Shown here piece by piece: positions 7,487-16,899 of a stretch of DNA of 34,457 nt. Origin of the DNA: Candidatus Neomarinimicrobiota bacterium (GTDB lineage: Bacteria > Fidelibacterota > UBA2242 > B5-G15); the NCBI GenBank assembly GCA_017656425.1, contig JACDNV010000022.1, forward strand, positions 1-34,457. The letters are read 5' to 3'. The first letter of the stretch is position 1. Every line of letters starts with the position of its first letter. A model generated the notes under the pieces. It worked only from the letters and a program-made list of their open reading frames with translations. It did not search any database and had not been told where the DNA came from. The position numbers were made by a program, and so were the translations under genes.

Positions 7487-7560
7487 GGAGCCGTAGTTCA
7501 ACCGGTTAGAGCGCCGGCCTGTCACGCCGGAGGTTGCGGGTTCGAGCCCCGTCGGCTCCG
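7487..7560 (+). tRNA. tRNA-Asp (anticodon GTC)
   Basis: A complete 74-nt cloverleaf. The acceptor stem GGAGCCG (7487-7493) pairs with CGGCTCC (7553-7559), with G7560 as discriminator. The anticodon stem CCGGC/GCCGG (7514-7518/7526-7530) closes a 7-base loop with GTC at 7521-7523. The T arm is GCGGG/CCCGT with a TTCGAGC loop. CCA is not encoded. The gene sits 96 bases after purA and marks the left edge of the accessory island. Its 3' end is copied twice just downstream. Confidence 0.97.
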
Positions 7561-7798
7561 CTATTTCTTAAGTGAATATCCTTAACACTATACGTATATA
7601 TTATACCCCAAAAAATAAACACACCGGAGGTTGCGGGTTCTCCCTTAGGGATCTCTTCGAGAGAGCCCCGTCGGCTCCGCTATTTCTTAAATGAATATCC
7701 TTAACACTATACGTATATATTATACCTTAAAAAATAACCACACCGGAGGTTGCGGGTTCTCCCATAGGGATCTCTTCGAGAGAGCCCCGTCGGCTCCG
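7561..7798 (+). repeat. Two tandem 119-nt units carrying modified copies of the tRNA-Asp 3' end
   Basis: Units at 7561-7679 and 7680-7798 are nearly identical. Each has a 60-nt AT-rich spacer (CTATTTCTTAA...TATACGTATATATTATACC) and then the last part of the tRNA-Asp gene from the anticodon-stem 3' side through the T arm and acceptor strand to the discriminator. In both, about 22 bases are inserted in the T loop. These bases can form two small hairpins, TCCC-TTA-GGGA and TCTCT-TCG-AGAGA. In unit 2 the first hairpin loop is ATA instead of TTA, leaving the stem intact. The spacer also follows the real tRNA, so the array reads tRNA, spacer, partial copy, spacer, partial copy. A third unit starts (CT) and stops. 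Confidence 0.9.
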
Positions 7799-7870
7799 CT
7801 AAGACAATAACAATAACATTACCCAAAGCTAATAGATATAAATATCATAGGTTGTAGTCCTTTAAAAGAA

Positions 7871-8293
7871 GCTGATACTTCCAATCCGTAAAACTCTTGT
7901 AAATGCTCTTGTATATCACGAACAATCCCTTTCGCGTATAAAGAAAGAATCTTGCCCTCCAATTCACTAAATTCTCGCTGATATTTGGGTATCAAAACTG
8001 GCTCAAATTCTCCGTGCCTATCCCGTTGAACTTCAATGTCAACCTTGCCAAATTCACTTTTCGGCTGCTCGCTGCTGCTACCATTACGATAATTCGTCGT
8101 TTTGTTACCTCACTTATTGTAAGTTCATAACCTAAAATTATATATAAGTTCCTCCTGTAAAAGCTGATCAATAAGTTTCTTTACCAGTCTCTTAATAAGA
8201 CCATTTTTACCCACTAAATCATCAATTGTTCTAAAATCTCTTAAATTACTCTCAAGTTGATCAATAATAGCTCTCTCCAACTTCATTTTCCAT
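7871..8293 (-). pseudogene. IS256-family transposase, N-terminal fragment, frameshifted
   Basis: Read on the - strand, ATG 8286 gives MKLERAIIDQ... with VGKNGLIKRLVKKLIDQLLQ and then a TGA. The family homology resumes in a shifted frame with SEFGKVDIEVQRDRHGEFEP, PKYQREFSELEGKILSLYAK and RDIQEHLQEFYGLEVS. These are the classic N-terminal motifs of IS256/mutator transposases (R-N-G, E-V-P-R-D-R, F-P, I-L-S-L-Y-A-K-G, I-Q-E-H-L). Two residues are missing from the KGMSTRDI-equivalent, and homology stops at about 7871. The whole DDE catalytic domain is therefore absent. A short end-like motif lies upstream at 8331-8345. Confidence 0.8.
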
Positions 8294-16509: not shown

Positions 16510-16899
16510 AACGTTTTGTATTCACGAAGTCGCCGAAGGCAATTTACCGAAGGGTAAGATAGCCTTACGGCAATTGCAAAATGAAGATTGCAAAGTGCAA
16601 AAGTCAAATTTATTTCTGTCTACATTTTGAGTACAAAAGCCAAATCTGACAAAAGGCGATTTTGCATTTTTCAATTTGCATTCTGCATTCTGCATTGAGC
16701 CTTTGCGCTTAACGTCTTGTATTAACGAAGTCGCCAAAGGGTAAGATAGCCTTACGGCAATTGCAAAATGAAGATTGCAAAATGCAAAAGTCAAATTTAT
16801 TTCTGTCTACATTTTGAGTACAAAAGCCAAATCTGACAAAAGGCGATTTTGCATTTTCCAATTTGCATTCTGCATTCTGCATTGAGCCTTTGCGCTTAA
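16510..16899. repeat. Two tandem copies of a 190-200-nt intergenic repeat
   Basis: Copy 1 (16510-16710) and copy 2 (16711-16899) are almost identical apart from a 12-base deletion in copy 2. Each contains AACGAAGTCGCC..., GGGTAAGATAGCCTTACGGC, heptamer-like runs (TGCATTCTGCATTCTGCATT) and, on the other side, related inverted runs (GCAAAATGAAGATTGCAAA). The apparent 90-residue frame inside is a by-product of the heptamers. Tandem copies of this sort are dispersed intergenic repeats rather than genes. Confidence 0.8.

Follow-up and report, generated by a model that had tools for sequence, protein, structure and literature searches.

What are the two 119-bp units that follow the tRNA-Asp gene of this Candidatus Neomarinimicrobiota bacterium, and how does each come to carry a piece of that gene interrupted by a pair of hairpins? 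The window, by which we mean the whole 34,457-nt stretch analysed, is an entire contig (C22) of a 2.8-Mb, 50-contig genome. Its only tRNA is an intact tRNA-Asp(GTC), the putative target gene, encoded at 7487-7560 on the plus strand like all parts of the array described below (ARAGORN; Rfam RF00005, 67.2 bits).

Layout of the array

A preliminary description, made from the letters of the sequence, had reported an intact tRNA-Asp followed by two tandem 119-nt units, and ARAGORN, Rfam and TRF bear this out. TRF detects a 119-bp period across 7544-7801 with a 96% match. The unit boundaries are drawn in the insertion register because the junction between C56 and R57 of the T loop is fixed, which places the first unit at 7544-7662 (TRF, the sequence and comparison with other loci) and the second, with the same layout, at 7663-7781 (TRF and sequence comparison). 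Each reads, in order, as a tRNA 3' half (R57 to the discriminator), a spacer, a partial tRNA copy ending at C56, and a twin hairpin. Compared in the spacer-to-copy register, the units are identical at 114 of 119 positions (5 differences). Rfam has no family that matches them, the tRNA being its only match in the window.

The partial copies, at 7620-7640 and 7739-7759, run from C36 to C56 with a single mismatch (CACGCC to CACACC) at their 5' ends. Together with the segments beyond the hairpins, 7620-7679 and 7739-7798 reproduce tRNA-Asp from C36 through the discriminator, interrupted by the hairpin insert. The copying had been called exact, which is slightly too strong in view of that one substitution. 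As first described, a 22-base insertion occupies the same place in both T loops (7641-7662 and 7760-7781), exactly between C56 and R57, that is, between GGTTC and GAGCC. It comprises two 11-base hairpins, TCCC-TTA-GGGA and TCTC-TTC-GAGA in the first unit and TCCC-ATA-GGGA and TCTC-TTC-GAGA in the second. The sole change between units, TTA/ATA, indeed falls within a hairpin loop and leaves the stem unaffected. The array ends in a displaced tRNA-Asp 3' end (R57 to the discriminator; 7782-7798), an exact repeat of the 3' end of the tRNA that, under an insertion model, would be the original host 3' end.

A simple chance repeat is ruled out by the TRF period and by searches in which the T-loop halves had no other mismatch-free occurrence within the window and the insert had no further occurrence in the genome at ≤3 mismatches. 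No sigma-70 promoter was found in the spacer. An archaeal reading, prompted by a TATA-like spacer, was dropped, as the window proteins are bacterial. Directly behind the array on the minus strand (~7810-8110) lies what appears by eye to be a decayed IS256-type transposase fragment. Further along the window, 16550-16899 contains a non-coding 187-bp tandem duplication (1.9 copies, 98% match) with short repeats of the ATTTTGC type.

Paired hairpins in tRNA copies

The insert had been described as folding into two short hairpins. Minimum free energy folding of a lone unit does not return them, yielding an extended T-stem hairpin without the pair and a weak z-score (-1.3 to -1.5), but comparison across genomes does. 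The twin-hairpin fold thus rests on comparison, and energy folding by itself would have missed it.

A search for copies near the tRNA genes of this genome revealed a second array, behind tRNA-Lys(CTT) where contig C2 ends, with tandem partial copies at a 111-bp period. Each of these copies carries TCCCGGAGGGATCCCTATGGGA after GGTTC, in the variable region. The architecture is that of the Asp insert, two 11-nt hairpins of the form TCYC-NNN-GRGA, with compensatory changes in the stems. Behind tRNA-Arg(TCT) (L011, G000:C4), a short, degraded D-to-anticodon copy lies ~38 nt downstream and is perhaps the remains of another element.

The preliminary description had proposed searching the lineage for the unit. 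With the unit itself as DNA query, matches among 100 relatives were confined to the genome of the window, because spacers and tRNA bases differ. These limits of DNA searching called for searches by T-loop pattern, tRNA and GIY-YIG domain. A scan of 84,980 genomes for GTTC followed by a twin hairpin returned 23 loci. Roughly half of these are the 3' ends of tRNAs such as Val, Ser and Met, and their genomes carry the labels Ignavibacteria, Bacteroidetes, Melioribacter and Calditrichaeota. One locus (L130) closely reproduces the arrangement in the window, with tRNA-Val followed by two tandem 94-bp units. The T-loop twin hairpin was not found in viral contigs.

When the sequence of the insert was left unconstrained, 17 T-loop inserts were recovered, of 22 nt (13 cases), 44 nt (two cases, each with four 11-nt hairpins), 24 nt and 30 nt (one case each); the 15 inserts of 22 or 44 nt pair in register. 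The 44-nt inserts at L223, behind tRNA-Lys(TTT), are of the four-hairpin kind. On average, 7.77 of 8 stem positions are paired in the 22-nt inserts, compared with 3.15 in shuffled sequences. A covariance analysis, also proposed at the outset, found compensatory changes in both stems: across 14 inserts, the tRNA-Lys insert included, 97.3% of cells are paired and 18 are doubly changed, against 5.4 in shuffles, and sliding the structure along the inserts abolishes the pairing signal. The covarying stems argue for selection on the hairpin structure.

The C56/R57 insertion point recurs in Asp, Val, Ser, Pro and Lys copies. Other copies bear hairpins in the anticodon region (L100, L176, L219 and L226) or the D loop (L062 and G010), and some have them in two loops. 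At L062 (1-230, G240), the 5' part of tRNA-Ser is repeated in tandem 80-bp copies whose D loops contain twin hairpins; this array stands upstream of an apparently intact tRNA-Ser that the contig end cuts.

Seven matches to the pattern TCYCNNNGRGATCYCNNNGRGA occur in the genome of the window, four of them in the Asp and Lys tRNA copies (none for the reversed control), and the pattern is present in 26 of 245 genomes of the phylum (reversed control, 0 of 245). One member of the phylum matches CP070656.1 (Candidatus Neomarinimicrobiota) without a difference along 3 kb, in keeping with a probable origin of the window in that phylum. Twin hairpins are also found away from tRNAs, at intergenic sites and inside a transposase-like gene, and are therefore spread through these genomes more generally; for those in tRNA copies, the uninterrupted form is present next door. 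An apparent transposase gene (L048, 736-757 and 784-805; G000:C26) contains two identical twin hairpins spaced 48 bp apart. At L115 (1133) and L116 (6581), twin hairpins cap a palindrome, GTAGGGGCGTTC..GAACGCCCCTAC, that looks like a REP element.

Small GIY-YIG genes behind tRNA genes

In several twin-hairpin loci, the DNA that separates the intact tRNA from its hairpin-marked copy encodes a small GIY-YIG protein (PF01541, E-values of roughly 1e-15 to 1e-16), with the near-invariant Y, YIG, R, H and E residues retained. A complete element consists of a GIY-YIG gene of ~80-120 codons directly behind a whole tRNA, with a partial tRNA copy at its far end; many of the genes have such a copy downstream, derived from the neighbouring tRNA and bearing hairpins in its loops. 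The genome of the window has a GIY-YIG gene directly behind tRNA-Ser(TGA), and a gene of the Asp type was not found in it.

For a set assembled independently of the hairpins, we collected GIY-YIG matches from 23 genomes of the order and examined 57 small genes, 50 of which have enough upstream sequence. More than half of these (27 of 50) follow a same-strand tRNA at ≤120 nt and not one (0 of 50) follows a tRNA of the opposite strand, while about half of the small genes have no adjoining tRNA. Eight further genomes were reached via the hairpin pattern, so that only the order set gives a hairpin-independent rate. The assemblies are drafts, and several loci stop at contig ends. Partner tRNAs include Ser, Pro, Asn, Met, Glu, Asp and Ala. 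In a tree built from few columns, where near-copies aid clustering, the tRNA isotype tracks the GIY-YIG phylogeny (25 changes versus 37.4 in shuffles, with 0 of 200 shuffles as low), and the Pro and Asn clusters bring members of the order together with genomes that were reached from outside its phylum. Controls from other phyla yielded a single small GIY-YIG gene, with no tRNA nearby, too small a number for judging taxonomic range. Two near-identical small GIY-YIG genes (L144 and L150; G000:C9 and C10) also have no tRNA nearby and fall in a separate clade with other copies of that kind. Our literature search, which covered mainly open-access papers, found no account of GIY-YIG genes that follow cellular tRNA genes and have hairpin-marked copies.

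These genes bear on whether the array records the passage of an integrase. Elements that integrate at tRNA 3' ends leave the tRNA whole and a displaced 3' piece behind, and a displaced end behind an intact tRNA, as in the window, is the usual sign of such integration. The units could accordingly be read as attachment-site scars of a tyrosine-integrase element, either a phage or an integrative element. However, a Pfam scan of 20 window proteins detected no integrase, the 119-bp units contain no gene, a 22-nt hairpin insert in just one of the two attachment sites would be unexpected, and related loci carry small GIY-YIG genes instead, with hairpins in the displaced piece. We consider such scars very improbable, and the suggestion that the insertion is a known att core finds no support. 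The earlier suggestion that integration, repeated at the tRNA 3' end, left a relic comes near the reading that we favour, differing in that the gene involved would be of the GIY-YIG homing type and not an integrase.

tRNA-Asp elements in relatives and the origin of the units

GIY-YIG versions associated with tRNA-Asp occur in G010, G006 and G020, which represent three other genera of the same order. There, the stop codon of the GIY-YIG reading frame is directly followed by a tRNA-Asp copy that begins in the anticodon and includes a hairpin. The right end of L181, AAATAACCACGCCGGAAGTTG, and the second unit of the window, AAATAACCACACCGGAGGTTG, have matching junctions, and a copy that starts against a stop codon, as in the window, is seen at L181, L199, L225 and L247. 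L199 encodes an Asp-type protein of 82 aa. An ORF-less tRNA-Asp unit with the same stop-codon/copy junction is present in G004. At L151, three ORF-less units spaced ~120 bp apart come after a complete tRNA-Ser/GIY-YIG/copy unit, an arrangement indicating that ORF-less tandem units arise from the GIY-YIG system elsewhere.

The window spacer, at ~60 bp, has no GIY-YIG reading frame between tRNA and copy. It does encode HYTYILYPKK* in the first unit (7586-7618), with the stop abutting the tRNA copy, and, by translation, HYTYILYLKK* in the second (7705-7737). A GIY-like motif with a stop arises in 0.12% of shuffles, and the possible vestige is short and in frame with the stop before the copy; the peptide is only suggestive of a remnant GIY-YIG frame.

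Within one genus, an occupied tRNA-Asp locus (G010) and an empty one (G021) have flanks that are 94-95% identical on both sides. Elsewhere in the order, tRNA-Asp loci are mostly empty, without any copy, and no close empty-site relative was found for the window locus. A test for chimeric acceptor stems, in which the displaced 3' end would be a better pairing partner for the tRNA than its own 3' end, gave mostly ties (18), with one positive (the Asp locus L199) and three negatives.

Taken together, these comparisons lead us to think that the window units are probably ORF-less, tandemly repeated derivatives of a GIY-YIG homing-type element targeting tRNA-Asp. As they contain no GIY-YIG reading frame, we class them as ORF-less derivatives and not as a complete element. 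Might unequal recombination have produced the same array with no endonuclease, through a partial tandem duplication of tRNA-Asp into which an independent twin-hairpin repeat was inserted before amplification? A tandem tRNA-Asp duplication does exist in G002, and the dispersal of twin hairpins beyond tRNAs would supply the repeat, but the constant C56/R57 point in five isotypes, the common stop-codon junction and the association with GIY-YIG genes are left unaccounted for, and we regard this course of events as quite unlikely.

Under the homing-type reading, the GIY-YIG protein would cut an empty tRNA gene, and the element would be copied in by break repair (intronless homing), carrying a tRNA 3' half. 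The supplied half would keep the target tRNA intact, and the window units may then have formed as the ORF was lost and tandem duplication took place. Most tentatively, and as a guess, the hairpins could disable the displaced tRNA piece, either by removing the cutting site or by preventing its action as a tRNA fragment. Hairpins in two loops of a single copy fit such neutralisation better than a mere mark of the junction.

The preliminary description had also considered a transcribed array, and the units might be maintained as tRNA-like small RNAs released from the tRNA precursor, acting as decoys, sponges or stability elements, by analogy with E. coli tyrT/rttR. The stems covary as expected of structure under selection, the units lie directly behind the tRNA on its own strand, and the E. 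coli loci likewise have a tRNA gene trailed by tandem repeats that each copy its 3' end, where the rttR small RNA is annotated. When we checked tyrV, its copies proved to be 178 bp apart with 19 nt of tRNA-Tyr, unlike the 119-bp unit of the window; a tpr reading frame is annotated, no twin hairpin is seen at the junction, and the Rfam rtT family has no match in the window. Against a maintained RNA, the same copies terminate complete GIY-YIG elements elsewhere, most tRNA-Asp loci of the order have no copy and so do not conserve such an RNA, and no Rfam family matches the units. This explanation seems unlikely, and the GIY-YIG derivative remains our preferred account of the units.

A broader proposal, which we advance tentatively as somewhat less secure than an even bet, is that a selfish GIY-YIG family in Neomarinimicrobiota, Ignavibacteriota, Bacteroidota and Calditrichota replaces the 3' half of tRNAs and marks the displaced half with pairs of 11-nt hairpins that are under selection and would block re-cutting or a harmful tRNA fragment, and that its ORF-less units spread as tandem satellites. 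If so, free-standing GIY-YIG homing at tRNA genes would extend from phages to bacterial chromosomes, with essential genes of many isotypes as targets. By providing the 3' half of the tRNA, the element seems to keep its target functional, as integrases are known to do. The paired hairpins, whose structure is constrained across phyla, would be a so far unexplained feature, and annotators would need to treat such copies as neither tRNA genes nor integrase scars.

The closest characterised relative is SegB of phages T4 and T6, a free-standing GIY-YIG homing endonuclease of tRNA gene regions (PMC13096335, PMC2988022) whose cuts in the DNA cause a tRNA segment to be amplified in tandem (PMC13096335). 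Both systems place a GIY-YIG gene next to tRNA genes. However, SegB is a phage gene with no described hairpin-marked partial tRNA copy, whereas the elements here lie in bacterial chromosomes, encode proteins of ~80-120 aa, have a far-end partial copy of the adjacent tRNA and form ORF-less tandem units. By sequence, the closest solved structures are small GIY-YIG proteins of the UPF0213 family (PDB 1ywl and 1zg2), structural-genomics proteins of similar size with no assigned role, for which no link to tRNA genes was found in the literature searched. The hairpins themselves recall the double-hairpin and repetitive hairpin elements of mitochondrial DNA (PMC2800124), which are also tandem, small and dispersed, with conserved stems and variable loops, and occur inside RNA genes as well. 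Those elements have other sequences and longer stems, unlike the paired 11-nt hairpins of these bacterial chromosomes. At L243 (~1204-1500, G010), the functional tRNA-Asp is preceded by a tandem series of tRNA-Asp copies whose D, anticodon and T regions bear hairpins; the series lies within a stretch that is missing from the empty allele of G021.
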